A stretch of 31,949 nt of DNA from a virus: positions 1 to 31,949 of the IMG/VR virus record IMGVR_UViG_3300031842_000026; one strand, written 5' to 3'. The notes beneath the pieces are model-generated. The model was not told the DNA's origin and ran no database searches. It saw nothing but the letters and a program-made list of their open reading frames with translations. The position numbers and the translations under genes were made by a program. Positions 1,731-16,519 of the stretch are shown in pieces; position 1 is the first letter of the stretch, and each line of letters opens with the position of its first letter.

Positions 1731-4700
1731 ATGCCCGAGAACCGTTTGATTGACGCAGGCTCAGAATGGGCCGATCCTTTCAATCTCTATAGCGGTAACA
1801 AAACTGCGCTTGGTGGCGAAGCGCCTGGGCTTTCACCCAAGACCGATACGTCCAGCTCTCTGCCAGCAGGCATGTCTCAGCGCGATTGGGACGACACGGT
1901 AAACACTGTCATTGCCGAGGCGGCAGGCGAGGGTGACGACGGCATGGCCGGTGTGGCGCATGTCATCCGCAACCGTTCCAATATCCGTGGGAAGTCCATT
2001 GGCGACGTCGTGCGCGAGCCGGATCAGTTCACCGGCTATGCCAGCCCGGGTGCAAAGACCGTTGAGGCGATGCGCGATCCTGCCATGCGCGCCCGCGCCG
2101 AAGGCATTCTGCGTAACGCGCTGACCAGCGATGGTCCCGATCCGACCGGCGGCGCTGACCACTATCATGCGACGTCGGTAAGCCCCGGCTGGGCGGGTGC
2201 CATGCCAGAGACGACACGCATCGGCCAGCACATCTATTACAATTCGAAGGGCGAGAAGAAGTCCGCTCCGTCGTCGGCGAGCGCCTTTGTGCCCGAAGAG
2301 GACCCGCTGGGCCTGTATGGTCCGAAAGGTCAGTTCCGCGACGTCTTGCAGGGCGATGAAGGCAAACCGGCAACGCAAAAGCAGCGCGACAACTCCATCT
2401 TGCTAACCAAATTGCAGGCCGGGAAGCCAGAAACCTATGTCACAGCTATGTCGGATGGCCTGCATGGCGGACTCACTGCGATGTTCAACGAGGCCCCCGA
2501 TTTCGTCCGCAACGGTCTAGACGTCTTGTCCGGTGCGCGCACACCAGAGCGTCAGGCGCAAATCATCGCTGATCATGCAGGAAAGTACGGCTTCGACCGC
2601 AAAGCGTGGGTGGCTGATGTTGAGCGCCTCGGCCCGGTAGAAGCTGGTAAGCAATGGCGTCCGACATTCCGCAAGCTGGGGCTTACGAAGAATATCGGCA
2701 TGCCTGGCGGATCGAAACACCAGCATGGCGAGGCAGCTGACCTTGGATGGAATGGAGGCGCATTCTCTAAGGCTCCTAAAGAAGTCGTCGAGTGGGTGCA
2801 TTCGAACGCTGGCCGATACGGGTTGGCGTTCCCGATGGCGCACGAAAATTGGCATATTGAGACTGCGGATGCTCGGAGCGGGGGGAATGCGAACCAGCCT
2901 GCAAAGCCGAAAGGCGTTGAGGTCAGCGATAACTTCAAGGCCAATGACCCGTTCGGCATGTACACCGGCCAGCCCAATCCATTCGAGCAGGACGCAGCGA
3001 ACGCGGCGGAGGATCGCCGCGCGGCAGAGACGCAGGCAGCGGTCGAAAAGGAGCGTCAGCGCGTGGTGGCCGATGTTGCCGCCAATAACGACGCGGTTGC
3101 CAGCCAGTTGGCAGGCCTCGAGGCAAAGACGCCTGGACGATATCAGGAGGTTCCCGAAAGCCAGCTCGCTACATGGCAGGAGCAGTGGGACAAGGATAAC
3201 CGATCGTCCGGTACGCCGGGCGATCTGGTGCGCCGTTGGGGTGCGGGCGCGGCGAACACCAGCCAGTCACTCGACAATCTCGGCAATCTGCTGCTGAACA
3301 AAATCCCGGGAGGATCGTACATCAACGATGCCCTGGACGGCATCGATCGCTGGATGGGCGGCGGCAGCACGGTTGCCGAGAAGCGGCAGGAGAGCATTGA
3401 CCGAGAGAACGCCACGCTTTCGCCAGAGGGTGCAGCGGCGCGCGACAAAAAATGGTGGGACGACGAGAACAAGACGCTGGGCCCGGCATGGACCGATCCG
3501 CGCAGTTATCTCGGCGTCATCGCTGAAAGCGGTCCTTCCACGGTTGCCAGCATGCTGCCATCCGGCATCATCGCCCGCGGTGCGTTCGTCACGACGTTGG
3601 CAGGCGGCGCATCGAGGGAGGTGGCAGCCGCAACCGCAGCAAAGACGGCCACGTTGGCAGGCGGCATCACCGAGGGCTTGCTGGGTGGTGCTGACGCGGC
3701 AAACTCTGTCCGCCAGAAGATCACCGAAATGCCGCGCGAGCAGCTCGTACAGTCCGACGCGGTCAAGCAGCTCATTGAGAGCGGCATGTCTGAGCAACAG
3801 GCTATCGACGCGGTCAGCAATGATGCGCAGACGCAGGCCCTCATCACCGCCGGCGTCGTCACCGGTGCTTTCGGCGGCATGGGCGACCGTGCATTGGCGA
3901 AGATCATTGCCGAGGGTGTCGAGGGTGGTGTTGCTCGTCGCGTCGCCACAGGCATGGCGCGTGGTGCTGTCGCTGAAGGCATCTTCGAAGAAGCGCCGCA
4001 GAGCGCAGGCCAGACCATTGCAGAGAACGCAGCGATGCGCCGCGTCAATCCAGATCAGGAGTTGACCGAAGGTCTCGGCGAATCCGTCGCATCTGGCATT
4101 GCAGCCGGTGGCGCCATGGGTGGCGGCATGGGTGGTGCTGGCGGTTTGGCTCGCCCTGCAGCTGGCCGTGCTGGCGTGGAACTCCCTCCGGCACAGCCCG
4201 AGCCAGACAATCGCGGGCCGCTTCGTCGTGCCGCCGATCACGGGCAGCAGCGCGAGACGGAGCGCGCCACCGCTGCGGATGCGGGTGCGCCGATCGATGG
4301 CAGGCCTGCCGCCAAGTCCACGGTGCGTGTTGAGGCCGAAGGCATTGAGCCTTTCATGGGCACGGTTGAAGGCTATGAGGGCGATGAAGCCGTCATCGTC
4401 GATTCCAGCAGCGGCGAAATGTTTCAGGTGCCGCTCGCGAACATAACCGAGATTGCACCGCCCGTTGGTGATTACCGATTCCCGGAAAAGGCCGACGACG
4501 GCATGCCGGAGCTGTCCGCAGATCCTGCGCTTGAACCGCTCCCTCCGATGGGGAGCGAAACCACGTCGGAGATGCCTCCGCGCAGCGAGGACATGGCAGC
4601 GACGGACAAGCGGCCAACGAGGCCGCAGCCAGGTCATCGCGTCATCGTCGATAGCCCCGAGGTGGGCAGGTTCCCGGCTCGCATCGAACGTTATGAGAAC

Positions 4701-7700
4701 GAAGGCGCCGAGGCTCTTGTTGTTGACGACAAGGGCAATCCGTTTCAGGTCCCGACGACGGCGCTCAAGGTCAGCAGCCTTACCCCGGCGCAGATCGAGG
4801 CGCAGGACCTCGAGCGCAATCCGCCGATCGAACGCGAGATTGGTGATGCCGGTCCTAACAGCCGAAAGATCGGCGACGCCACCGTTATCCTGCCCGACGA
4901 CAATCACGCTGCGCTATACGACCTCGCCCGCGAGCAGGTCATGGCAAAGCGGCTTGGCGGCACGTCTCAGGTCGATATCGATAGTGTTCTGCCCGCAGAG
5001 CGTAAGCGCCTTGCCGATGCGTTCGGCATAAAGGTGGCGGACCTCGCATCAATGGCGGACGATTACCGGTACCGCGCCGAGCGTGCAGCAAAGCAGGCAA
5101 AGTCGAAGCTGCCATTCAAGATGAACGCGGTTAACGACCGGCTGTTGAAGCAGAGGCAATCGGCCCGGGCGAAAGAGGCTGGCGAGCCTCTGGTGGAGCC
5201 CGCCGACGACGGCGCGGCGTGGTGGGACGTCGATCTGACAGCGCAGGACCGCAAGCGCGTGCTGGAACAAGCTGGCGTGAAACGCTCTGAGCGCTTGATG
5301 TGGCAGGGCATGACGCCTGGCATCAAGAAGAAGCTATTGGATGTGAGGGACGCGCAGCGCGCGGCAGCGGATGATGTTGCCACGCTGGCCGGCAAGGACG
5401 AAGTCTCCGCCAAGATGCGTGCGATCGCCGATGAGATTGGTCAAGACGACGGTGCTGTGTATCCCGACCACGCGGAAGCTGCCCAAGCGGATGCAGCGGC
5501 CAACGAGGCGGCCACGTCGCCCACCAATGACCTGCCTGAGCCCACAGCCGCGCAGAAGGAGGCCGGAAACTACAAGGTTGGCCGGTTGAAGCTGGGCGGC
5601 CTCGATATCTCGATCGAGAACCCGGCAGGCTCGCAGCGCAAGGGCGTGTCATCGTCGGGCAAGGCATGGTCCGTCGATATGAAGAGCCATTACGGCTACA
5701 TCCGCGGCACCGTCGGCCGGGATAAGGACCATATCGACGTATTCGTGCGGCCCGGTACCGAGACGCTTGACGATTCCTCGCCCGTCTTTGTCGTTGACCA
5801 GAAGGACCCGGCACGCGGTCGTTTTGATGAACACAAGGTTATGGCCGGTTTCGACAATGAGGCGCAGGCCCGCGCCGCCTATCTCGAAAACTACACCGCG
5901 GACTGGAAGGGGCTGGGTGATATCAGCCAGACCACACTCGGCGACTTCAAGACCTGGCTGAAATCCGGCAAAACGTCGGAGCCTTTCGCGCCGAAGTGGT
6001 TTGCATCACAGGACAAGGCCGACGGCTATATTGCCAGGAACAACATGGGCGAGACCCATGAGGTTGTGCAGCGTGGCAAACGCTTCGAGATATTGGAGCG
6101 TCGGCGAGACGTGCAGGATCGTCCATCCTCGCCGGCGAATGAGGGGCCGACCGTCACAGATCGTAATGGGCGTCGCTACCAGACCAAGGGCGAGAAACTG
6201 CCAGAGAAGGGCTTGGCTCCAGCAAATGTCGGCTCCGACGGCTTGGTCTATGTCGGCGAGATCGGCAGCCAGCATTTCGTCATCGCCGATAAGCATCACG
6301 ACGCTGCACCATTCGATAGCGTGGGCTTTGTCACGCCTGACGGTGATTTCCTTGATCGCAAGCAGGCGTTGGAATGGGTGAACACAAACGAGAGGCCTGT
6401 TCGCACTGGCTCCAATATGGGCGAGGAGCTGGATGCTCTCGATTACAGAGACCAAGTTCCGTCCGCTGTGAAGGCAGCGAAAGGTGGGACGAAAGCGGCA
6501 AAGGCGAAACCAGCCGTCAGCACCAACACCATTTTCACCGACGATGCCGCGGCGAAAGCGCGTGAGTTGCTTCGCAAGAAGCTTTCGGGCAATACGCTGA
6601 ATAGCGGCATCGACCCGGAGCTGTTGCAGGCCGGGATCACACTTGCAGGCTATCACATCGAGAAAGGCGCGCGCACCTTCGCTGCATATGCTTCGGCAAT
6701 GCTGGCGGACCTTGGCGAAGGCGCGCGCCCTTACCTCAAATCGTGGTATGCGGCCACCATCCTAGATCCTCGTTTCAGCGATATCGAAGGAATGACGCCG
6801 CTTGCGGAACTAACCGACATTGATATTGATGCCATCACTGCCCGACAGGCCGAGGCACTGGACGGTGCCGTTGATGGACGCGAAACGAGCGAAGGGCCGT
6901 TCGGCCCGATCCTGCGCGGATATGAGGGTAAATGGCGGGAGGCCGCGCTCGAGCTTGAGCGCCGGCAAACTGGCGATGCTATTGCTGCACTTTCGCATCC
7001 CGATGTGGGACCCATTGATCTGGTTTGGGGCACGGCCGGCAGTAACCAGAATAACGGTGCCGGTCTCGCAAAACTGATTGCATGGCACCCCGAGGTGCTG
7101 GATGACCTGCAAGGTTTCATCAATCGCCTTTCGGTTGACGAGAGGCGATCGACAAACCGGCGCATCCAGTTGTCGGATGCAAGCGGGAATGCGGGTGTGC
7201 GCCTCGATTTTGACGGAACGGCAAAGACGTGGTTGCTGACAGCTTATGAAACTGGGCAGCGGCGCACCGAGAGAAGTTCACGCCGTCTCGGTGACTTGTG
7301 GGGAGGCCGGGAAACTGCGCCATCCTCGCCGCTGGAAGAAAGTGCTGGTAAAAGCGCCAGGTCAGACACCGCTTCTACGGACCTGTCGGATGCCATCGCT
7401 AGCCGACAGACCAACACACAGGGAAATGTAGCACCGGGCTCAACCGATGTCCAATCCATCCCGCAGGCAGATGCGGCGAGGGCGGACCCCGATGAATATG
7501 ACCGCCCAAAGGCGAATAAGAGGCGAGACGAGGCCGTTGAAGGCACGCGCAACGATCTGGTGCACGTTGGGCTCCCGACCGCGCCGGAAGGCCCCGCCAT
7601 ATTTGATTGGGCCAGAGACACGATCAGCCGTTTCGGCAAAAAGGGTCACGAGTATCTGATGGCCGTCGATGACGATGGCGCAGTCGTCGAATTTGGCTCG

Positions 7701-10700
7701 GCGAACAGGAAAGCATCGACCGGCATCAACAACAAGCTACTCGGCGCGATGCTCAATCCTGACCGGCGTTTGGTCGTTTTTCATAACCATCCTCGCGGCG
7801 GCCCACTCAGTGCAGATGATATCGCCATGTTGGCTCTCCCCGGCATGCACTCAGTATGGTCGTTCACGCCGGCGGGTACTGACATGCGCGCGGCTCTAAC
7901 GCCCGAAGCAGAAGCCGCGCTATTCTCGACAACGGATCACTTCGCGAAAATGCGTGAGATTTCGACTGCAATAGCGGATGCCCGGAACGATGTAAGTGAT
8001 TTCCTCGCGGACAAAGTGAGAGAAGGAGCCGCTACGCCGCAACAGGCGGAGGAGGCGCACAATTTCGCGTCTGTCATGGTGGCCCATAGGGCCGGTCTGA
8101 TCGACATAACCTCAGAGAAGAATTACAATGTGGCCGCTATCGACGGCTTGAACAGCAGGCTGGACAGCGCGGCTGCTGCAATAAGGGAAAGCATCGACGA
8201 TGGTAAAGCCAACTATTCCGGTGAGAGGGTTTCACGACGATCCGCCCGCGACTTTCGCCACGTTGCAGAAGTGGCGGGACTGGCACGACGCGGTGAGCGA
8301 GTGGCCAGCGGACGATCCGGACCGGAAGGCCTCTCTGAAGCAGGCCCGTCAAATTATCAGGGAGAAGTCGGCGAGTGGCGCAAGCTCGTCCAGGACTTCT
8401 CAGACGTAAAAGCCACCAGAGAGAATATCGTTTCCCGGTTGCGCGGGGTCATCGCTGACAACAAATCCAGCATCCTCGCCACCGTGCCGCTGAATTACTT
8501 CCCGGAATTGGCCGGCGATAAAATCCCTGCGATCAACGATTATCTGCTCATCAAACGCAAGATGGACGCCTACAGGAGCGGCAGGCACGACGCCGCGGCC
8601 GAGGTAATGGACCGGTGGCGGAAATATATCAGCACCGGGTTCTTGGCCGTAGACAAGTCGAAGTCGCAAGCACTGGCAGACCTGATGCATGACGCAACGC
8701 TCGCCGGCATCGATCCTTCGTTGACGACAGAAGAAGAGCGAGCAAAACCCGGCTATGACAGGCTCCGTAAGAGATTTACGGCGATAGCCCCGATCGGGCA
8801 GAAACTCTTCACTGATGTGAGAGACGCTTATCGTGAGCAAGCCGACGAGCTGGATCGTCTGCTCCTCGACAACGTTCGCAAAGCGCAGGAGATGGCGAAA
8901 CAGCAGGCTGAGCGGGAATTCAAAGCCCGCCTCGCTGACATCGAGGCCAGTGATCTGAACCCGATCGACCGCCGCCGGCGCGTCGAGGACGCGCAAAACA
9001 AGCATAAGGCGGCGATGACGAAAAGTACGTGGGCATCCAAGGCGCGAATGACCCAGCTCCGCGTAATGTTTGAGAGTAACAGGGTTCCCGATCCGTATTT
9101 CCCGCTCGCACGTTTCGGCGATTATTTCGTTTCGGTTAAAACACCACGTAAGGACGAGGCGGGCGACATCGTCGGATATGACGTCTTGCACTTTTCGCGA
9201 CACGAGAAGGCAAGGGAGATGGAACAGGCGCTGGCGGAGCTGAGAAGCGAGTTTCCGGATGCCATGGTCACCAGTGGCATGCTGAGCAAGGGCGGCGAAC
9301 TCAAAAGCGCGATGGACCCTCGAGTCGTCGGAGAACTGGATAAACTGCTGGCATCCGCCAACGTCGGAGACGACATCCGAGATGCTTTGTATCAGCGCTG
9401 GCTGCAGACGATGCCGGACCTCTCTATGCGGAAACGTGCGATACACCGAAAAGGCATCGCCGGATACAATACTGACGCGTTCCGGGTATTCGCAAGCACT
9501 ACGTTTCACGCTGCCCATCAGATGGCACGATTGAAGTACGGGCTTGAGCTGCAGGAAAATGTCAACCTGGCAGAAGAACAGGCCAAGGCCGTCGACCATA
9601 ACCAAAAAGAAATGGCGCTGGTAAACGAGCTGTTCAAGCGCCACCAGTGGACGCTGAACCCCACCACCAAGCCGCTCACCAACTGGATCACCGGTGCAGC
9701 CTTTGTTTACTTCCTTGGCGCCACGCCGGCCGCAGCGCTGGTCAATGCCTCACAAACCATAATGGTGGGTGTGCCTGTGCTTTCGGCCAAGTTCGGATTC
9801 GCCAGATCCTCTTCCGAATTGGTGAAAGCGACCCGCGAATTCACCAACGCCGTGATCAAGGAGACGAAAACCGCGGAGGGACTTGGAGATTTCTTCAAGA
9901 ATGCGGGCGATCTGCGCAACGCATCCTCGCTAACCGGTGACGAGCGAGCCGCGATGGAGGCATTCTACGAATCTGGTCTGATTGATCGCACGCAAAGTCA
10001 TGATCTTGCGGCTGTGGGGGAGACCGGCACCAAGTATAACCCCGTGCGTGAGAAGGTAATGAACGTCGTCAGCTATGGCTTCCACAAGGTCGAGGTGTTC
10101 AACCGGACCGTGACTGCCATCGCCGCCTACAGGTTGGCCCGGGAGGCGGGGCAGTCGCACCTTGACGCTATCAACAGTGCTCATGATCTGACCTATAAGA
10201 CCCACTTCGATATGAGCAACAGCTCGCGTCCGCGTGTCACGCAAGGTGACATACCGCGACTTGCAACTATGTTTAGATCATTTCAAATCAACATGTTGTA
10301 CAGGCTTTTTAGAGATATACATCAATCTCTGAAAGGGGAGAGCAAACAGGTTCGCCGTGAGGCCCGGCTTCAATTGGCGGGCGTCACGGGTATGATGGCG
10401 TTGAACGCCGGTCTCACCGGCACCGTCGGTTACGGTCTGGCGATGGCGGCCGGCGGCATTCTCAAGTCAATGTTCGGGGATGATGATGACCCGCTGGATT
10501 TTGAAGAGCGGTTCCGCTCGGATATCCTAGAGTTACTCGGGCCCGAGCTGGGCGGGATCGTCCTAAAAGGTGTGCCGGGCCATTATCTCGGGATTGACCT
10601 CACCAGCCGTATCGGCATGCCCGATCTGTGGTGGCGAAGTGAATCGAGGGAGCTTAACAGCGACGATGCACTGAAGGAGTTCGTCTATCAGAACCTCGGC

Positions 10701-11297
10701 GCCGGTTTTGGCATTGTGCGTAACACGTATAACGGCGTCGACCTTGCGCTGCAGGGCAATGTCGAGCGGGGCTTTGAGACCGCGGCACCGAAATTTATTC
10801 GCGATGCGTTGCGAACCATACGATACACCAGAGACGGTGTGGAGAGCATCAGGGGCGATCAGGTCATAGCGCCTGATGACCTAAGCGCATGGAACCTCGC
10901 CAGTCAGGCAATGGGCTTCACACCTGCCAAGATCGCTGATGCCTACGAGGTGAACACAATCCTGCGGAACGCCGAGCAGCGGATCAAGGATCGCAAAAAA
11001 TCGATCGTCAATCGCTTCGCCAAGGCCGTGGAAGATGGGGATGACGAGGCACGCCAGAAGGCGTTGGATGACATCGGGGAGTACAATGCAGGGGCAGCCA
11101 CGCGTCTCGATCCCATCACAGCAAAAGGCTTGAAGCAGTCGCTTCGAATGCGCGTTCGGAACCGGCAGCGCTCCGTTGGCGGCGTGCTCATTCGGAATGA
11201 AGCTTTAAACCAGTATCTCCGCGGAGAGGTGGCCGGGGCGAGGGCGGCCGGTGACGACGACGATGATGACGATGTAGAAGAGAGCGGCGGCGAGTGA
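1731..11297 (+). CDS. Giant polyvalent virion protein (SleB-like, M15, InPase-like, JAB and PLxRFG domains)
   Basis: The protein has 3188 residues; ATG follows AGGAG at 7 nt. Domains in order: SleB-like cell-wall hydrolase (about 48-170, E63 in IAEAAGEGDDG); M15/VanY-type peptidase (about 245-385, SKHQHGEAAD at 328-337 and ENWH at 372-375); Ala/Gly-rich hydrophobic region (600-800); two similar modules of about 50 residues ending FQVP (864-911, 969-1017); inorganic-pyrophosphatase-like polyvalent domain (1280-1420, IENPAGSQRKG, DHIDVFV); a GYHIEKGARTFAAYA module (1614-1674); PBECR-like nuclease fold (1720-1837); JAB/MPN domain (1957-2067, H2018, H2020, S2027, D2030); PLxRFG motif at 2458-2463; helical C-terminus with hydrophobic segments near 2650-2690 and 2881-2918; acidic tail. 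Polyvalent proteins of this type are packaged in the head and ejected with DNA. The two hydrolases suggest local peptidoglycan opening and the later domains suggest effectors. No RNA polymerase motifs are seen. SleB, M15, JAB and PLxRFG are firm; InPase is good; PBECR is tentative. Confidence 0.88.
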   Translation: MPENRLIDAGSEWADPFNLYSGNKTALGGEAPGLSPKTDTSSSLPAGMSQRDWDDTVNTVIAEAAGEGDDGMAGVAHVIRNRSNIRGKSIGDVVREPDQFTGYASPGAKTVEAMRDPAMRARAEGILRNALTSDGPDPTGGADHYHATSVSPGWAGAMPETTRIGQHIYYNSKGEKKSAPSSASAFVPEEDPLGLYGPKGQFRDVLQGDEGKPATQKQRDNSILLTKLQAGKPETYVTAMSDGLHGGLTAMFNEAPDFVRNGLDVLSGARTPERQAQIIADHAGKYGFDRKAWVADVERLGPVEAGKQWRPTFRKLGLTKNIGMPGGSKHQHGEAADLGWNGGAFSKAPKEVVEWVHSNAGRYGLAFPMAHENWHIETADARSGGNANQPAKPKGVEVSDNFKANDPFGMYTGQPNPFEQDAANAAEDRRAAETQAAVEKERQRVVADVAANNDAVASQLAGLEAKTPGRYQEVPESQLATWQEQWDKDNRSSGTPGDLVRRWGAGAANTSQSLDNLGNLLLNKIPGGSYINDALDGIDRWMGGGSTVAEKRQESIDRENATLSPEGAAARDKKWWDDENKTLGPAWTDPRSYLGVIAESGPSTVASMLPSGIIARGAFVTTLAGGASREVAAATAAKTATLAGGITEGLLGGADAANSVRQKITEMPREQLVQSDAVKQLIESGMSEQQAIDAVSNDAQTQALITAGVVTGAFGGMGDRALAKIIAEGVEGGVARRVATGMARGAVAEGIFEEAPQSAGQTIAENAAMRRVNPDQELTEGLGESVASGIAAGGAMGGGMGGAGGLARPAAGRAGVELPPAQPEPDNRGPLRRAADHGQQRETERATAADAGAPIDGRPAAKSTVRVEAEGIEPFMGTVEGYEGDEAVIVDSSSGEMFQVPLANITEIAPPVGDYRFPEKADDGMPELSADPALEPLPPMGSETTSEMPPRSEDMAATDKRPTRPQPGHRVIVDSPEVGRFPARIERYENEGAEALVVDDKGNPFQVPTTALKVSSLTPAQIEAQDLERNPPIEREIGDAGPNSRKIGDATVILPDDNHAALYDLAREQVMAKRLGGTSQVDIDSVLPAERKRLADAFGIKVADLASMADDYRYRAERAAKQAKSKLPFKMNAVNDRLLKQRQSARAKEAGEPLVEPADDGAAWWDVDLTAQDRKRVLEQAGVKRSERLMWQGMTPGIKKKLLDVRDAQRAAADDVATLAGKDEVSAKMRAIADEIGQDDGAVYPDHAEAAQADAAANEAATSPTNDLPEPTAAQKEAGNYKVGRLKLGGLDISIENPAGSQRKGVSSSGKAWSVDMKSHYGYIRGTVGRDKDHIDVFVRPGTETLDDSSPVFVVDQKDPARGRFDEHKVMAGFDNEAQARAAYLENYTADWKGLGDISQTTLGDFKTWLKSGKTSEPFAPKWFASQDKADGYIARNNMGETHEVVQRGKRFEILERRRDVQDRPSSPANEGPTVTDRNGRRYQTKGEKLPEKGLAPANVGSDGLVYVGEIGSQHFVIADKHHDAAPFDSVGFVTPDGDFLDRKQALEWVNTNERPVRTGSNMGEELDALDYRDQVPSAVKAAKGGTKAAKAKPAVSTNTIFTDDAAAKARELLRKKLSGNTLNSGIDPELLQAGITLAGYHIEKGARTFAAYASAMLADLGEGARPYLKSWYAATILDPRFSDIEGMTPLAELTDIDIDAITARQAEALDGAVDGRETSEGPFGPILRGYEGKWREAALELERRQTGDAIAALSHPDVGPIDLVWGTAGSNQNNGAGLAKLIAWHPEVLDDLQGFINRLSVDERRSTNRRIQLSDASGNAGVRLDFDGTAKTWLLTAYETGQRRTERSSRRLGDLWGGRETAPSSPLEESAGKSARSDTASTDLSDAIASRQTNTQGNVAPGSTDVQSIPQADAARADPDEYDRPKANKRRDEAVEGTRNDLVHVGLPTAPEGPAIFDWARDTISRFGKKGHEYLMAVDDDGAVVEFGSANRKASTGINNKLLGAMLNPDRRLVVFHNHPRGGPLSADDIAMLALPGMHSVWSFTPAGTDMRAALTPEAEAALFSTTDHFAKMREISTAIADARNDVSDFLADKVREGAATPQQAEEAHNFASVMVAHRAGLIDITSEKNYNVAAIDGLNSRLDSAAAAIRESIDDGKANYSGERVSRRSARDFRHVAEVAGLARRGERVASGRSGPEGLSEAGPSNYQGEVGEWRKLVQDFSDVKATRENIVSRLRGVIADNKSSILATVPLNYFPELAGDKIPAINDYLLIKRKMDAYRSGRHDAAAEVMDRWRKYISTGFLAVDKSKSQALADLMHDATLAGIDPSLTTEEERAKPGYDRLRKRFTAIAPIGQKLFTDVRDAYREQADELDRLLLDNVRKAQEMAKQQAEREFKARLADIEASDLNPIDRRRRVEDAQNKHKAAMTKSTWASKARMTQLRVMFESNRVPDPYFPLARFGDYFVSVKTPRKDEAGDIVGYDVLHFSRHEKAREMEQALAELRSEFPDAMVTSGMLSKGGELKSAMDPRVVGELDKLLASANVGDDIRDALYQRWLQTMPDLSMRKRAIHRKGIAGYNTDAFRVFASTTFHAAHQMARLKYGLELQENVNLAEEQAKAVDHNQKEMALVNELFKRHQWTLNPTTKPLTNWITGAAFVYFLGATPAAALVNASQTIMVGVPVLSAKFGFARSSSELVKATREFTNAVIKETKTAEGLGDFFKNAGDLRNASSLTGDERAAMEAFYESGLIDRTQSHDLAAVGETGTKYNPVREKVMNVVSYGFHKVEVFNRTVTAIAAYRLAREAGQSHLDAINSAHDLTYKTHFDMSNSSRPRVTQGDIPRLATMFRSFQINMLYRLFRDIHQSLKGESKQVRREARLQLAGVTGMMALNAGLTGTVGYGLAMAAGGILKSMFGDDDDPLDFEERFRSDILELLGPELGGIVLKGVPGHYLGIDLTSRIGMPDLWWRSESRELNSDDALKEFVYQNLGAGFGIVRNTYNGVDLALQGNVERGFETAAPKFIRDALRTIRYTRDGVESIRGDQVIAPDDLSAWNLASQAMGFTPAKIADAYEVNTILRNAEQRIKDRKKSIVNRFAKAVEDGDDEARQKALDDIGEYNAGAATRLDPITAKGLKQSLRMRVRNRQRSVGGVLIRNEALNQYLRGEVAGARAAGDDDDDDDVEESGGE
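8200..8409 (+). CDS. Possible nested small gene inside the giant gene (+1 frame)
   Basis: Sixty-nine codons run from ATG 8200, with GGGAAAG about 8 nt upstream, to TAA 8407-8409. They lie one base out of phase with the giant gene. The product is protein-like: acidic, helical and Trp-containing (LQKWRDWHDAVSEWPADD, RKASLKQARQII). Third positions in this frame are mostly G or C, whereas the giant frame over the same bases drops to about half GC3 and reads as an Arg/Ser/Gly-rich linker. It may be a true overlapping gene, a relic absorbed into the giant gene, or a chance frame. I know no homologue. Confidence 0.3.
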   Translation: MVKPTIPVRGFHDDPPATFATLQKWRDWHDAVSEWPADDPDRKASLKQARQIIREKSASGASSSRTSQT

Positions 11298-11577
11298 TTA
11301 TTTGCGCTCTGTCTAGCGGCTCTCAAAGATTTCATCAGGTAGGAAATTAGAGAAGACATCCCGCAAAAATGTCGATAAGTTCGCGTCGTGGGTTATGCTG
11401 GGGCATGCAGGGGACACGATGGAGCATATTGGCGGCTGCGCTCGAGGGCGCGGGCTGAATTTGGCCACAACCTTCACTATATGTGCTGTAGGAACCTCTG
11501 CAGGGCTTTCGGCGTTAACGATAGCTCTACGCAAGGCAGTTACTCTATTCTCGTGTTCAAACGGGAAAGGTGCGCAC

Positions 11578-11856
11578 ATGAACCAGAAGAAAAAACTTCG
11601 GTCTGTCCTTTCGGAAGCGATGGGACGGCCAGCCCCATACAAACGATATCTTACCCTCGATAATGGAGACATGCTTCATGTTTCTTTCTTCGACAGTCTA
11701 GCAACCGTCACCTTAGGGTCTCAGGTCAGGCCGTTGCCGCGAATTCACAATTGTCATGGCATGCGTGGCGATTGGGAGGCCTTGGGGTACGATCTCGCCA
11801 AAGTCATGGACGAACGCCTGAAGGATTTACCACCGCGTAAGGAAATCGCCCCTTAA
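11578..11856 (+). CDS. Small hypothetical protein
   Basis: Ninety-two residues, with a basic N-terminus (MNQKKKLRSVLSEAMG), a compact middle with beta-like segments (YKRYLTLDNGDMLHVSFFDS, ATVTLGSQV) and a helical end. No signal peptide, membrane segment or family motif is recognised. The frame is open further upstream, but ATG 11578 has GGGAAAGG at a suitable distance and the upstream part is unlike coding sequence. The 280 bases between the giant gene and this start hold no convincing promoter or gene. Its TAA shares a base with the ATG of the next gene, so the two are translationally coupled. It may be cargo or an accessory phage gene. Confidence 0.6.
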   Translation: MNQKKKLRSVLSEAMGRPAPYKRYLTLDNGDMLHVSFFDSLATVTLGSQVRPLPRIHNCHGMRGDWEALGYDLAKVMDERLKDLPPRKEIAP

Positions 11857-12497
11857 TGTCGTCCGAAGAAAATAAGCAATTCGATGACGGCATGAAAAAT
11901 GTTGTCGATATGGGCGTAAAAGAGATTTTACCCCTCGTTCAAGGGGCGATCGAGAGAAAAACCGGCAACAAGGTTACCGAGGTTGAACTCGCTAATCTCG
12001 TGCCGGCGATCGAAGAGGTTGTTACAGAGGTAACGACCATGTCCATGGGCTACGCCTATGCCGGCCCGATGCCTCATCCAGCGATGATGCGTGCCTATGT
12101 AGATCTGTATCCTGACGCAGCAAAACAACTGTTTCGGCAGATGGAGGATGAGCAGAAGCATCGTCACGGTTGGGAAAACAAGGCGATCGATGAGACTTCA
12201 GACGAGCGTAAGCGGCGAGATTTCGGTGCGTACGGCTTGGTTATCGTCGGAATTCTCGCTGCTTGCTATCTCGGTTTTCTCGGCGCCACTACTGTCGCGG
12301 GTGCCGTTATCGCTGCTTTGGTACTGGGCGGTGGGGCTCTTGTTCTTGGTCGGCAGCTTCTGGCAAAACATGGCGAAGACGGCACGATGGTCCATGTCAA
12401 TTCTGATGACCAGAAGCCACATCAAAACACAGCTCAGTCGTCGGCGCGGAAACAGCGTACCAAAGCAGCCAAGAAGCCTGGCGGACGTTCTAGATAA
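11856..12497 (+). CDS. DUF2335-type membrane protein
   Basis: The protein has 213 residues. The segment from about 72 to 105 (MMRAYVDLYPDAAKQL, then RQMEDEQKHRHGWE) matches the pattern of DUF2335 predicted membrane proteins: a short helix ending in a charged EQxHRH stretch before paired membrane helices. Two transmembrane helices follow at about 125-142 and 145-163 (LVIVGILAACYLGFLG; VAGAVIAALVLGG), with a basic cytoplasmic tail (KQRTKAAKKPGGRSR). ATG overlaps the preceding stop by one base. DUF2335 proteins occur in phages and mobile elements without a known role; superinfection exclusion or a membrane-stress function would be guesses. It converges with the HNH gene, leaving a 29 nt gap. Confidence 0.72.
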   Translation: MSSEENKQFDDGMKNVVDMGVKEILPLVQGAIERKTGNKVTEVELANLVPAIEEVVTEVTTMSMGYAYAGPMPHPAMMRAYVDLYPDAAKQLFRQMEDEQKHRHGWENKAIDETSDERKRRDFGAYGLVIVGILAACYLGFLGATTVAGAVIAALVLGGGALVLGRQLLAKHGEDGTMVHVNSDDQKPHQNTAQSSARKQRTKAAKKPGGRSR

Positions 12498-12526
12498 TTC
12501 CGAGCCCACACGCCTCCTATCCAGCG

Positions 12527-13144
12527 TTACTCAAGCCAAGCCCATTTGCGGAGATGAAGGATGTCGGCGACCGCAGCGTTGCTGACGCCGAAAAGCCTGG
12601 CGATGCCTCTTTGGCTCATTGAGCCAGAGAGGACACGTATCTTCCTAACGTCTTCTTCGCTCAGCTTCGCGTGTGCGTTTCGCTCGCCTCTGTTCGAAGT
12701 ACCGTGCAGCACGCGATCCTTCTGGTTGCCGGAAGCGGTGTCCCAGCGCAAATGCGACTTGGTTACACAACCGAGGTGGCCGTTACCGCACGAATGCGCG
12801 GCTTCGAGGTCAGGCGAAGGGGGAGCACCGTGTACGTCCTCGCAAACCATACGTGGCACAATGGACGTAGAGCCGTCGCCCTTGTCCCAAATCGCTCGCC
12901 CGTTTTTTTGCCCTCGGCTAAACGGCCAGATCAGGCAACTATCGCCGTCATACGTCAGCACTCTCTCTCGATAAAACCGCTCCCGAGAGCCAAAGTTGTC
13001 GCCGGTCGGAACAGGGCCGGATAACGGGTCTCCGAAACGCTTCGCCCTTCGATAATGAAACCGGCAATACCCCAAAGCGTGATGATCGCCGTCGCAGCCG
13101 GCGACACAGCATTTGCGGTCGTTGCGTCGCTGCTGTTGGCTCAT
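12527..13144 (-). CDS. HNH endonuclease with one zinc finger and a C-terminal HTH (paralogue of 13141-13848)
   Basis: The product has 205 residues. An N-terminal zinc-finger-like motif C-x4-C-x9-C-x2-H (ending GYCRFH) is followed by an HNH_3-type nuclease core (EAAHSCGNGHLGCVTKSHLR) and a helix-turn-helix (MSQRGIARLFGVSNAAVADI), the usual arrangement of free-standing phage homing endonucleases. The domain pattern predicts sequence-specific DNA cleavage. ATG 13144 forms an ATGA overlap with the upstream stop; the open frame extends three codons to a GTG at 13153, which is less likely. The HNH and HTH parts closely resemble the upstream neighbour, including the WAWL ending, so this is a tandem duplicate. 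Catalytic histidine and the zinc-binding cysteines are intact, so it is probably active. Confidence 0.82.
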   Translation of the reverse strand: MSQQQRRNDRKCCVAGCDGDHHALGYCRFHYRRAKRFGDPLSGPVPTGDNFGSRERFYRERVLTYDGDSCLIWPFSRGQKNGRAIWDKGDGSTSIVPRMVCEDVHGAPPSPDLEAAHSCGNGHLGCVTKSHLRWDTASGNQKDRVLHGTSNRGERNAHAKLSEEDVRKIRVLSGSMSQRGIARLFGVSNAAVADILHLRKWAWLE

Positions 13145-13848
13145 TTCAGCCACGCCCAGTTGCGACGGTTGACTATCCCATGGACGAGCCCGGTGCTCAC
13201 ATTAAACCTTCGAGCAAGTTCGGCGTGTGAAAGGGTCTGCGCCAGTCGGCGTATTTCCTTAACTTCCGTGCTCGTCAGCTTCGCCCTTGGGCTTTTCTCA
13301 CCTCGGTTATCAGTCCCGTGGCGCACTCGATCTTTCTGATTGCCTGATGCGGTAGCCCACCGGAGATGTTTTTTCGTGACGCAGCCTAGGTGTCCGCACC
13401 CGCAACTGTGTGCCGCCTCGGCATCGTGGAATGGCGGCGGGCCGTGTGCATCAATGCAAAGCTGGCGGTGCACCCTTATTGGGCCACCGCGCGTCTCACC
13501 TCTACCCCACTTTGCATAACCCTTTTCGTCGCGGTAAAACGGCCATATCAGGCACTCATCGTCGCGCTCATATTTCAGAACCACGTTTTTATAGAAGCTC
13601 GCTCGCTCTCCTCGTGTAAAAACACCGCCGATCGGTGATCCGTGTTTGCGCAATTTTTGATAGTGGTTCGTGCAATAGCCTCCTGCCAGGACAGGAAATG
13701 AACATCCTTCGACGGAACAAATTGGCAAATTTGCTTGCAGGGGAGCGACGTGGCCGAGCCGGCGCGCCTTCCCATAGTGCATGTTGCACATTCCGCGGGT
13801 GCGAACCTTGCGATCGCACCCGTCGACCAAACATGTCTTCTCGGACAT
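13141..13848 (-). CDS. HNH endonuclease with two zinc fingers and a C-terminal HTH
   Basis: The product has 235 residues. Two tandem zinc-finger-like motifs, each C-x4-C-x9-C-x2-H (CLVDGC...GMCNMH; CSVEGC...GYCTNH), occupy residues 5-70. They are followed by an HNH_3 core (EAAHSCGCGHLGCVTKKHLR) and an HTH (LSHAELARRFNVSTGLVHGI). It is the paralogue of the next gene downstream, which has only one finger. ATG 13848 is one base after the stop of the Tat-signal gene, with GAGG 9 nt upstream. The role should be site-specific DNA cleavage, either selfish homing or attack on a competing phage. The pair sits at the end of the antirepressor operon and may have invaded it. Confidence 0.83.
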   Translation of the reverse strand: MSEKTCLVDGCDRKVRTRGMCNMHYGKARRLGHVAPLQANLPICSVEGCSFPVLAGGYCTNHYQKLRKHGSPIGGVFTRGERASFYKNVVLKYERDDECLIWPFYRDEKGYAKWGRGETRGGPIRVHRQLCIDAHGPPPFHDAEAAHSCGCGHLGCVTKKHLRWATASGNQKDRVRHGTDNRGEKSPRAKLTSTEVKEIRRLAQTLSHAELARRFNVSTGLVHGIVNRRNWAWLK

Positions 13849-13849
13849 C

Positions 13850-14431
13850 TCAGTGCGCCTCGATGAAGCGGATCGCAGCGCCGATCATCGCCTCGGCCGT
13901 CGGCGAGGTTGAACAATCCCGATACTCGTCCCGCGCCAGCTCTAGCGCGGCCAGTGCGCCGGCTCGGCTTGGCGCTGGGCCAGTCCACGCATTGAGAGCC
14001 TGCGTCGTGGCTGAGAATTCCTCTTCGCAGAAATCAACGCTCTCTGGATCTGAGCCGCGACGGTAAGCCGAAATGAGGGCGAGGAGGGCATCCTCAGTTT
14101 CACGGGGCGCGGGCGACGTTTGCCAGGCGGTGGAGGGCAGGGACGTGCGATCCGCGCCGACCATTCGCATCACGGCGTTGGCACGCGTCGACGGTGGCTT
14201 GACGAGGTGCCCGCGCAGCGCGGCGGAATCGCCGTTCATATCCGCGATCGACCGGTCGCACATTCCAACGCCCATCTCTTTCGACAGGCGGACGGATTCA
14301 GACCAGAGGAAGGCGTAGTAACGGGTCAGGTCCTCATATGCCGGTGGGGCGGGCTGGGCGTTGCCAGCGGCCGCAGCAGGAACGGCGAGGGATGACGCAG
14401 CTGCGCCGGCAAGGAAGGTTCGGCGCTTCAT
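13850..14431 (-). CDS. Tat-signal exported protein of unknown function
   Basis: The product has 193 residues and begins with a twin-arginine signal: R3-R4 in KRRTFLAG, a hydrophobic Ala-rich core and an AAA-type cleavage region near residues 20-23. The mature part is mostly helical, with a few cysteines (GMCDRS, DFCEEE, RDCSTS), and shows no domain I recognise. A strong GGGAGG lies 7 nt before the ATG, and the ATG overlaps the antirepressor stop as ATGA, so it is read with the antirepressor. Export of a phage protein through Tat suggests a periplasmic role in the lysogen or early infection, such as altering the envelope; this is inference. The cysteines could form a disulphide or bind a metal. 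Confidence 0.65.
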   Translation of the reverse strand: MKRRTFLAGAAASSLAVPAAAAGNAQPAPPAYEDLTRYYAFLWSESVRLSKEMGVGMCDRSIADMNGDSAALRGHLVKPPSTRANAVMRMVGADRTSLPSTAWQTSPAPRETEDALLALISAYRRGSDPESVDFCEEEFSATTQALNAWTGPAPSRAGALAALELARDEYRDCSTSPTAEAMIGAAIRFIEAH

Positions 14432-15252
14432 CGTGCCACCTCCCTGAACATGTCGCCCTGATCGAGTGCGACATTCAAAGCCTTGGCGAGTTTTACCAGA
14501 CCGGCACCGGTGAATTTCAGCGTTTCGCTGATCGCCGGAGTGCCGTCGCCCTTTTTGTAGGATTTTCCGACGTTACGGCACAGGCCGGATCGGTCTTTGT
14601 CGGCGTAGCAGAGTAAGGTGGATGTGCCTGGCTGGCGGTACGCCCACTTATTGCGCCGCAGCCAGTCCACGAACTTGCGCTCCTGCATATGAAGCATTTT
14701 GGCAGTTTCGCGGACGCCGAAGAGATCATCGGCGCCAGCGATGCGCTCGAGCGCCTGGACATCGTCCTGCATCGTCGTGATTTCGCGACGCATCTCCTCG
14801 ACTTGCAGAGCATAACCTTGCGTGATGGCGAGGAGGTGTTGGGGGTTGGCGATAAAATCCGCCACGGTGAGCGCCGGCACCGCTGACGCTCCCTCGATTG
14901 CGAAGTATCGGGAGATCATCTCGTCGAAAACTTCCCACGCCTTGTCGTCGTTCAGAGATTTGACAATCTTGAGATAGCCGCGGCGGGTCAGGAGTATCCC
15001 ACGGGCGGTTCTCTCTGGAAAAACGCCGGTAGATGACATCCGACGGATTTCGTCGGATGTCAGTTCCGCATAGTCATGGCCGTTGATGAAACGGTTCCGG
15101 TTCTCGCGAAAGCTACGGCCAGCCGTGCCATCGACGCGACCATGAAGTCGGTCGATCATGGCGAACGTGACGACGTGTTGGTTGCAATAGGTGATTTTCT
15201 GAATCGCAGTTCCGGCAACTTGCACGCATGCGACAGCGCTGCTATGTTCCAT
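14428..15252 (-). CDS. ant: Phage antirepressor (ORF6N and KilAC/ANT domains)
   Basis: The product has 274 residues. Residues about 12-105 fit ORF6N (NQHVVTFAMIDRLHGR, FRENRNRFINGHDYAELT), the N-terminal domain of many phage antirepressors. After a coiled linker (EEMRREITTMQDDVQALERI), residues about 170-265 fit the KilAC/ANT DNA-binding domain (LFGVRETAKMLHMQERKF, WLRRNKWAYR, LKFTGAGLVKLAKAL). Such proteins bind and disable a phage repressor, pushing the prophage to lytic growth. ATG 15252 follows AAAGG at 9 nt. It lies directly behind the Arc-like gene, separated by an intrinsic terminator, as ant lies behind arc in P22, although P22 Ant has different domains. The target repressor is not in the window. 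Confidence 0.85.
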   Translation of the reverse strand: MEHSSAVACVQVAGTAIQKITYCNQHVVTFAMIDRLHGRVDGTAGRSFRENRNRFINGHDYAELTSDEIRRMSSTGVFPERTARGILLTRRGYLKIVKSLNDDKAWEVFDEMISRYFAIEGASAVPALTVADFIANPQHLLAITQGYALQVEEMRREITTMQDDVQALERIAGADDLFGVRETAKMLHMQERKFVDWLRRNKWAYRQPGTSTLLCYADKDRSGLCRNVGKSYKKGDGTPAISETLKFTGAGLVKLAKALNVALDQGDMFREVAR

Positions 15253-15285
15253 AGCGCAATACCTTTCTGGATGATTGGGTTGAAG

Positions 15286-15328
15286 AAAAAGCCGACGCGG
15301 GTTTACGAGGCCGTTGCGTCGGCTTTTT
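15286..15328 (-). terminator. Intrinsic terminator overlapping the arc-like stop codon
   Basis: A 12-base inverted repeat (AAAAAGCCGACG at 15286-15297, CGTCGGCTTTTT at 15317-15328) gives a GC-rich stem with flanking A and T runs. Read on the minus strand it ends in TTTTTCTT. The Arc-like stop codon (15303-15305) lies in its loop, so the hairpin forms from the end of the coding sequence. It stands between the arc promoter and the antirepressor. The symmetric A/T flanks could also stop plus-strand transcription. Confidence 0.75.
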
Positions 15329-15479
15329 CGTTTGCTTGCACGCCGTAAGCGCGTCGGAGGTGATAGATAACCTCCGCATTCATAGTTCTCTCATTTTCCG
15401 CTGCGGACACCTTAATCTTTTTTCTTAGACCATCGGGTAGCCGGATCATGAGTTTATCTGCATCCTGAGGCTTTTCCAT
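15303..15479 (-). CDS. arc: Arc-like ribbon-helix-helix repressor
   Basis: The product has 58 residues; P22 Arc has 53. Residues 7-45 are a typical Arc/MetJ ribbon-helix-helix: a strand (KLMIRLPDGL) that would enter the DNA major groove as a dimer, helix A (RKKIKVSAAENER) and helix B (MNAEVIYHLRRAYG). The ENxRxxNxE pattern of Arc is visible. ATG 15479 has AGGAG just upstream; the open frame extends further, but only through the promoter. It is driven by TTGACT-17-TATAAA in the divergent region, and that promoter is covered by repeat boxes, so it probably represses itself, the antirepressor and perhaps the divergent gene. It is predicted to bind DNA as a dimer of dimers. Confidence 0.83.
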   Translation of the reverse strand: MEKPQDADKLMIRLPDGLRKKIKVSAAENERTMNAEVIYHLRRAYGVQANEKADATAS

Positions 15480-15494
15480 TTCTGCTCCTATATG

Positions 15495-15542
15495 GCTATC
15501 ATAATGCTTTATAGCTATATGCTTTATTGCAGTCAATAGCAT
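15495..15542. promoter_or_regulatory. Operator-like repeat array between the arc-like and mnt-like genes
   Basis: Two direct 12-base boxes, ATGCTTTATAGC (15504-15515) and ATGCTTTATTGC (15519-15530), repeat with a 15 bp period and differ at one base. Shorter inverted copies flank them: GCTATCAT (15495-15502) and CAATAGCAT (15534-15542). The boxes cover the -10, spacer and -35 of the minus-strand promoter. This is the arrangement expected for cooperative ribbon-helix-helix binding. Which of the two repressors binds cannot be told. Confidence 0.6.
15508..15536 (-). promoter_or_regulatory. Sigma-70-type promoter of the arc-like/antirepressor operon
   Basis: On the minus strand TTGACT (15536-15531), a 17 nt spacer and TATAAA (15513-15508) give a near-consensus sigma-70 promoter, with AGGAG and the arc-like ATG close downstream. 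It overlaps the operator-like boxes. No equally good promoter is seen for the divergent plus-strand gene. Confidence 0.75.
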
Positions 15543-15562
15543 TTTGCTTTACCGGTTTCGAC

Positions 15563-15817
15563 ATGGCTAAAAACGACGTACAGGTAAATTTTAGAATGCC
15601 TTTGGAGCTCAAGTCTCGCCTTGAAAAGGCTGCGACTGACAACAACAGGTCATTGACGGCCGAAATCGTTTCGCGTCTCGAGCTGACGCTCGACCAGTCC
15701 ATCAGTCCAGTAGCTCTATCAATTACGGAAGACATCGTAGAACGGGTTGTTCGGAAGATTAGAGAGGAAGAGCGGCTGAGCACATCTCAGCCAAAAGGCA
15801 GCTCGACTAAAGGTTGA
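15563..15817 (+). CDS. mnt: Mnt-like ribbon-helix-helix repressor
   Basis: The product has 84 residues; P22 Mnt has 82. The start MAKNDVQVNFRMPLEL parallels the Mnt N-terminus (MA-x-D, then NFRMP and E-hydrophobic). Residues 3-45 form a ribbon-helix-helix (NNRSLTAEIVSRLE for helix B). As in Mnt, a second charged helix follows (ITEDIVERVVRKIREEERL), probably a coiled coil for tetramer formation. The open frame starts earlier at 15527, but that codon lies inside the operator boxes; ATG 15563 gives the Mnt-like N-terminus, though its Shine-Dalgarno is weak. It is divergent from the Arc-like gene. The likely role is to repress the arc-antirepressor promoter in the lysogen, as Mnt does in P22; this is inference from layout and family. 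Confidence 0.82.
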   Translation: MAKNDVQVNFRMPLELKSRLEKAATDNNRSLTAEIVSRLELTLDQSISPVALSITEDIVERVVRKIREEERLSTSQPKGSSTKG

Positions 15818-15864
15818 TCGCGTGTATTAATGCGCGAAATTAGGGGCGTGTAAGTGGGGCAAAC

Positions 15865-16473
15865 GTGGGCAGTACGTCGGGTCATCAATTGCTGAGTGTT
15901 ATGGCAGGAGGCGGACCGTCTGCCGTCATAAGCTTCGCAATAACTTACGGGCTTTGGGTGGCGTATACGCGACGCCGGCCCAGCATCGCAGTTGTTGTTT
16001 TAGCTTTTTTTGTCAGCGTTTGCGCCTATTCATTTGGAGCGCAACTTGTAAGTTCTTCCCCAGCGGCGTTTCGAGCAGGCCCGCTGGAATGGTTCGTTCC
16101 GTTGACAGTTTGTGCGGTCACAGTGCTGATCTTCACTTTCTACAAGCGTGAATCGAAAGTTGTTGAAACTAATCAGCGATTAGAAATGATTCCGACACCC
16201 GACGTAGCATCGACCCCAGTGGTCAATAAGGCTGGCGCCAAGACAACCGAGGCGTCAACGCCGATCGATCTAAACAATTTCAGCAAACACTGGCTCAAAT
16301 ACGCGGGTGCGCTTATTTTACTGGTCTTTACATTGTTCCGGTATGACATAGTCGGCACTGGTGCGCCTGCGGACGGACGGGCGGCATCAGCCTTCGTCCT
16401 TGATCGATGGACGGGCAGCGTAACATTTTACTATGGAACGAATTATCGTGAGACCGTCGAATCAAAAGAATGA
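15865..16473 (+). CDS. Four-helix membrane protein, candidate superinfection-exclusion protein
   Basis: The product has 202 residues. Predicted membrane helices lie near 16-34 (SAVISFAITYGLWVAYT), 40-60, 74-93 (WFVPLTVCAVTVLIFTFY) and 145-163 (YAGALILLVFTLF), with a loop of about 50 residues between the third and fourth. The start is a GTG with a weak GGGG upstream; ATG 15901 is an alternative but would cut close to the first helix. No family is recognised. It lies 47 nt behind the Mnt-like gene on the same strand, the position of sieA in P22, which encodes an inner-membrane protein that blocks DNA entry of related phages. That parallel is by position and topology only. It converges with the structural block. 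Confidence 0.65.
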   Translation: MGSTSGHQLLSVMAGGGPSAVISFAITYGLWVAYTRRRPSIAVVVLAFFVSVCAYSFGAQLVSSSPAAFRAGPLEWFVPLTVCAVTVLIFTFYKRESKVVETNQRLEMIPTPDVASTPVVNKAGAKTTEASTPIDLNNFSKHWLKYAGALILLVFTLFRYDIVGTGAPADGRAASAFVLDRWTGSVTFYYGTNYRETVESKE

Positions 16474-16519
16474 GTTGGCTCGGCTTTCCTGAAGCGAAGC
16501 AAGCGTCGTTCCATATTGC

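Follow-up and report, generated by a model that had tools for sequence, protein, structure and literature searches.

The immI switch of phage P22 is a textbook regulatory circuit, studied mainly in P22 and known to form a variable moron in P22-like phages. Its sar antisense RNA comprises 70 nt and runs from the start of ant to the stop codon of arc, with the sar promoter within the first ant codons and the terminator at the end of arc (annotation NC_002371). The P22 sieA gene has its own promoter, and orf59a and a terminator lie between sieA and mnt. The c4 antisense RNA of phages P1 and P7 is a different RNA, encoded upstream in the same transcript, in a system that has no pair of ribbon-helix-helix (RHH) repressors. 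It also places an antirepressor under antisense control (PMC12197685), as is predicted for the locus described here. The 'ant moron' of P22-like phages was described in 2008, the region between two late genes being variable, with ten types across sixteen P22-like genomes (PMC2629481).

The DNA analysed here (the window) is the 31,949-base virus record IMGVR_UViG_3300031842_000026. In a profile search of the window proteins the major capsid protein falls into the N4-gp56 family (TIGR04387, E 2.4e-71), in agreement with the phage type given in a preliminary description of this DNA. Based upon the capsid family and the identity of the capsid protein to those of Agrobacterium phage Atu_ph08 (94%) and Sinorhizobium phage PBC5 (84%), the phage is assigned as a Bcep22-like podovirus, short-tailed and kin to phages of these hosts. 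The typing uses direct capsid protein searches; a PF13252 search, which matched nothing including the controls, was set aside.

The window contains a block that fits the ant moron known from P22-like phages. Its neighbours are two convergent genes, one for a giant polyvalent protein and the other for a virion protein (phrog_9667). Only 3 bp separate these genes in Atu_ph08, and they are close together or nearly adjacent in the contigs L047 and L048. Since they are adjacent or nearly so in relatives without the block, the block is a 5.2 kb moron insertion. The gene-order comparison with related phages that was proposed in the preliminary description thus delimits the insertion at 11298–16519, and finds it absent from Atu_ph08, L047, L048 and PBC5, the last having small ORFs only at the site. 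The placing of the module among virion genes is upheld, in that the block lies between late genes and is missing in relatives. The interval first proposed (12527–16473) contains the immI-like genes where they had been placed; its extent did not stand, as 12527–13848 comprises HNH-like genes and the inserted unit is larger. The block and the first of its genes, in window coordinates, are:

11298–16519, no strand: the inserted block (moron), between two convergent genes, the site being empty in relatives
11395–11856, plus strand: uncharacterised ORF at the block edge, no family match
11856–12497, plus strand: DUF2335 membrane protein at the block edge, from a family of phage morons (PF10097 2.6e-9, phrog_3996 2e-22)
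12527–13153, minus strand: second HNH-endonuclease-like gene, a passenger (phrog_59 1e-14)
13141–13848, minus strand: HNH-endonuclease-like gene, a passenger (phrog_5351 7e-18, phrog_59 4e-15)

The two HNH-like genes are arranged in tandem and are related to each other. They look like passengers and not members of immI; a role as parts of the circuit was considered and rejected, a related HNH gene being located elsewhere in L003 and L047. In L003 (14136–14846) it lies between other virion genes, and this suggests that HNH genes are mobile in this virion-gene region. The giant gene (1731–11297) encodes 3188 aa, and its counterpart in Atu_ph08 is 14.6 kb. Near codon 1910, between the parts that match residues 1909 and 1915, ∼5.0 kb present in the relatives is absent. 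This gap is close in size to the 5.2 kb block, and could reflect a packaging limit.

At 15303–15817 there is a divergent pair of Arc-family repressor genes, separated by a short control region:

15303–15479, minus strand: arc-like RHH repressor, 58 aa (PF03869 3.2e-8, AmrZ 2.3e-5), Shine-Dalgarno AGGAG
15480–15562, no strand: shared control region of 83 bp, conserved in comparison with L015
15505–15551, minus strand: three operator-like TAAAGCA repeats (15551–15545, 15526–15520 and 15511–15505)
15508–15536, minus strand: predicted arc-ant promoter, TTGACT (15536–15531), 17 nt spacer, TATAAA (15513–15508)
15563–15817, plus strand: mnt-like repressor, 84 aa (PF03869 2.2e-7, 1mnt 6e-4)

The profile searches against Arc and Mnt that had been suggested thus confirm the divergent Arc-like/Mnt-like pair by PF03869 on both sides, and the genes lie where the preliminary description put them, with coordinate corrections. 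The arc-like gene is likely to start at the ATG at 15479, following AGGAG, and not at the ORF start at 15542. Among solved structures the Mnt-like protein is matched best by P22 Mnt (1mnt, E 6e-4); the alignment begins at the first residues and includes NFRMP in both proteins, as had been noticed from the sequence. An AlphaFold model of the Mnt-like protein has a separate C-terminal helix (residues 49–74) with a local pLDDT of 75–86, although the pTM is only 0.27. The Arc family is too sparse for sampling across 367 Alphaproteobacteria genomes. In another contig (L013, 9328–9663) the mnt-side repressor seems to comprise two tandem RHH domains, with Arc and ParD-like matches.

The three TAAAGCA repeats are placed upstream of the −35 element, in the spacer and overlapping the −10 element of the predicted arc-ant promoter. 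The closest repressor pair is that of L015 (IMGVR_UViG_2833692911_000004), with 75 and 56% protein identity for the arc-like and mnt-like proteins respectively. The same promoter elements with the same spacing are present there, and a run of 34 nt (15518–15551) is identical between the two, compared with only 72% (arc) and 60% (mnt) identity in coding DNA. New in this module is the predicted arc-ant promoter, together with its three operator-like repeats, the control DNA being kept beyond the coding DNA. In L099 (arc 69%) three GGCTATGAGCCA repeats occupy the equivalent positions, and BRO- and Rha-like antirepressors (identified by eye) follow further downstream; the three-repeat scheme recurs with other sequences in several modules. 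Repeat enrichment is modest in single regions; the level of the window is reached by 0–2 of 60 shuffles. A degenerate operator pattern run over viral contigs returned only L015 as a true relative; the other five matches fall inside coding genes and arise by chance. As regards the overlapping, face-to-face Pant and Pmnt of P22, the window has a conserved Pant candidate; neither a convincing mnt promoter nor an mnt Shine-Dalgarno was found.

The block might also be a decaying relic that travels with HNH elements, since it includes two HNH genes and a membrane protein gene that lacks detectable relatives. All of its reading frames are intact, however, ribosome sites and gene spacing are in good order, and conservation is higher in the control DNA than in the coding DNA; decay is thus very improbable.

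On the minus strand the arc-like gene is followed directly by the antirepressor gene, and the predicted signals of an antisense unit lie at the junction:

14428–15252, minus strand: antirepressor with ORF6N and KilAC domains (PF10543 2e-11, PF03374 2e-20, phrog_4608 3.5e-25)
15220–15248, plus strand: predicted Psar-like extended −10 promoter, TTGCAC (15220–15225), 17 nt spacer, TGC-TATGTT (−10 at 15243–15248)
15255–15329, plus strand: predicted sar-type antisense RNA of ∼75 nt, covering the ant Shine-Dalgarno, at the position of P22 sar
15285–15329, no strand: perfect 14-bp terminator hairpin overlapping the end of arc, with an A-run and T-run on each strand (z-score −3.1)

Pfam gives only the ORF6N and KilAC domains in this protein, with no P22 Ant family domain, consistent with the earlier assignment of the antirepressor to a different class from P22 Ant. 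A scan of genome contigs with the antirepressor returned one close Rhizobiaceae relative (of the prophage type of L012) together with weak Lactobacillus matches.

The promoter candidate sits just inside the start of ant. Judged by position and signals, the window is thus predicted to carry a sar-type antisense unit as in P22, a further new feature of the module. The Rfam sar model (RF00262) matches P22, CUS-3 and Emek, and gave no match in the block or in the other modules searched. The unit was scored by its signals, using a fixed score; since the thresholds were set after about eight examples had been seen, held-out sets were used. In the first control set promoter and hairpin are both present in 5 of 258 genes, and four of these five are antirepressor genes. 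At loci outside the pattern definition both signals occur in 7/34 antirepressors versus 12/970 other genes (p = 1e-6). An independent set of 71 viral loci was fetched by the repressor RHH motif only, of which 61 have a divergent RHH partner. Here both signals are found in 7/25 antirepressors versus 8/396 other genes (p = 5e-6), and no module has them on both sides. The strict threshold is missed by 18 of the 25 antirepressor modules of this set; recall is low because the known P22 sar itself fails the terminator criterion of the strict score. A sar-like unit is also present in modules of named phages and viral contigs with other classes of antirepressor.

The hairpin has T-runs on both strands of its stem and could stop arc-ant transcription. 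It might thus do no more than terminate the arc message intrinsically or attenuate it, with the extended −10 element incidental and control exerted by the two RHH repressors alone. This is somewhat unlikely, given that next to antirepressors and post-arc genes the antisense promoter and the hairpin co-occur much more often than in the background, and that both signals sit at the annotated positions of the P22 sar and its terminator.

In L015 the place where the antirepressor would be is taken by two genes, one for a Tat-signal protein and one for a ParB-like protein. The ParB-like protein (3381–4310) was identified by eye, with no Pfam match over the cut-off, and lies behind the near-identical control region. 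The control part has thus been kept and the cargo changed; L015 resembles the window in repressor pair and control region, but differs in cargo and phage type. A pair and control region that occur there with no antirepressor, and the use of RHH families as antitoxins too, would fit a self-regulated moron that has no effect on the prophage. The RHH repressors would then control genes for conversion or against competitors, and a different target would be that of the ORF6N/KilAC protein. However, ORF6N and KilAC are phage antirepressor domains, and 25 recognised antirepressor genes lie directly behind an RHH gene among the 61 divergent pairs, making this reading distinctly unlikely compared with one in which the moron acts through antirepression.

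Each arm of the module encodes a further protein:

13850–14431, minus strand: Tat-signal (RRTFLAG) protein of the antirepressor operon, with an ATGA overlap with ant
15865–16473, plus strand: membrane protein behind mnt, with two clear transmembrane segments by hydropathy

The Tat-signal protein has homologues in L012, L023 and L084. Such ORFs lie on the antirepressor side in 10/51 modules versus 1/51 on the other side (p = 0.004), and a Tat-signal protein is thus a new, recurrent component of the antirepressor operon. The small proteins of the window (13850–14431), L012 (11097–11453), L084 (8671–9018) and L126 (3900–4172) mostly have a Tat-type signal, although the L084 homologue has no clear one. 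The Tat-type small proteins beside antirepressors of alphaproteobacterial phages gave no family match. Profile and phage searches gave no match for the membrane protein, and an AlphaFold model of it alone is of low confidence (53). Homology to SieA was rejected, as the protein shows no detectable similarity to P22 SieA (E 3.2). The immI-like layout proposed from the sequence, a divergent pair with an antirepressor behind arc and a membrane protein behind mnt, is confirmed, except that the label sieA has to be dropped. PADLOC found nothing among the accessory proteins.

P22 immI and the window have in common the divergent RHH pair, the antirepressor behind arc, the promoter between the repressors, the sar-like unit at the start of ant and the insertion among late genes. 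The window differs in its ORF6N/KilAC antirepressor, its three repeated operator-like sites, the lack of SieA, the added Tat-signal protein and the lack of an Rfam sar sequence match.

Comparable arrangements are found in other phages. In Acinetobacter phage Ab105-2phi, Paracoccus phages Pyei1 and Pkon1 and Pseudomonas phage UFJF_PfDIW6 a divergent Arc-family pair has an antirepressor on one side, as in the window, and the modules adjoin tail or tail-spike genes. They differ from the window in virion type and in antirepressor (BRO, Rha+KilAC, KilA-N and P22-type respectively). By record annotation the layout occurs with BRO in Ab105-2phi and qsb1, KilA-N in Pkon1 and phiAX1, Rha+KilAC in Pyei1, an antirepressor N-terminal domain in UFJF_PfDIW6 and a P22-like antirepressor in Emek; L085 has AntA+KilAC and L036 has Rha. 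L126 (IMGVR_UViG_3300011485_000011) has an RHH gene and a membrane protein divergent from arc, a sar-like unit, a Rha-like antirepressor and a Tat-signal protein. Its capsid is of N4-gp56 type like that of the window, but distant (34%), and its antirepressor is of the Rha class. L014, also of N4-gp56 type, has an ORF6N antirepressor, sar-like signals and two small proteins that look like RHH proteins by eye, with no Pfam hit. The view that no immI had been described in this type of phage holds for the searched literature, but comparable modules exist in L014 and L126, and the ant moron as a kind was already described in 2008 (PMC2629481).

The suggestion that the layout was kept while the effector was exchanged is borne out by Arc pairs that precede ORF6N, ORF6N+KilAC, BRO, KilA-N, Rha, AntA+KilAC and P22-type antirepressors. 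Independent origins of this layout and that of P22, each assembled out of widespread phage parts, could be proposed, as RHH genes are short and common, neither the antirepressor nor the membrane protein is related to its P22 counterpart, and the Rfam sar is without a match. Convergence is nonetheless unlikely: the layout, the ∼80–155 bp spacing of the pair, the promoter-repeat scheme and the sar position recur jointly in many phages, and no solved structure matches the Mnt-like protein better than P22 Mnt.

We consider it quite probable that the block represents an ant moron whose control circuit is of the P22 immI type and operates in full as follows. The Mnt-like repressor, expressed divergently along with the membrane protein, would hold the arc-ant promoter closed in the prophage. 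Upon infection or derepression the arc-ant promoter would fire, and the Arc-like repressor would then damp both promoters. The short antisense RNA, running from inside ant to the hairpin at the end of arc, would mask the ribosome site of ant and thereby limit antirepressor production to a controlled pulse. The ORF6N/KilAC antirepressor would inactivate a prophage repressor, either its own or that of a resident phage. The Tat-signal protein would be co-expressed with ant, and the membrane protein is likely to be a product for lysogenic conversion or exclusion. The window is likely to be a fragment of a virus genome, so that the targeted prophage repressor lies outside view. The gene identities, layout, insertion, conserved promoter and repeat block, hairpin and comparative enrichment are read directly from the sequences; activity of the promoter, operators and RNA in the window is predicted. 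From P22 (PMC11016777, PMC2629481, PMC12197685) and the comparative signals we infer all of the regulatory steps, including binding, antisense action, antirepression and the roles of the membrane and Tat-signal proteins.

The comparison adds evidence that the repressor pair forms a portable control cassette together with the sar-type antisense unit. The chances are about even that immI is one case of a widespread cassette that comprises divergent RHH repressors, a promoter with repeated sites, a sar-type RNA conserved in position but not in sequence and exchangeable antirepressors (ORF6N, BRO, KilA-N, Rha and P22-type), often with an exported Tat-signal protein. If this is true, the control layout would be the conserved part and the effector the exchangeable part, with a reach over N4-gp56-type podoviruses and tailed phages of alphaproteobacteria, Acinetobacter and Pseudomonas. 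Such modules could then be recognised independently of sequence, and antisense RNAs predicted where Rfam misses them. A general need of antirepressors for antisense control would be testable in the named phages Pyei1 and UFJF_PfDIW6.
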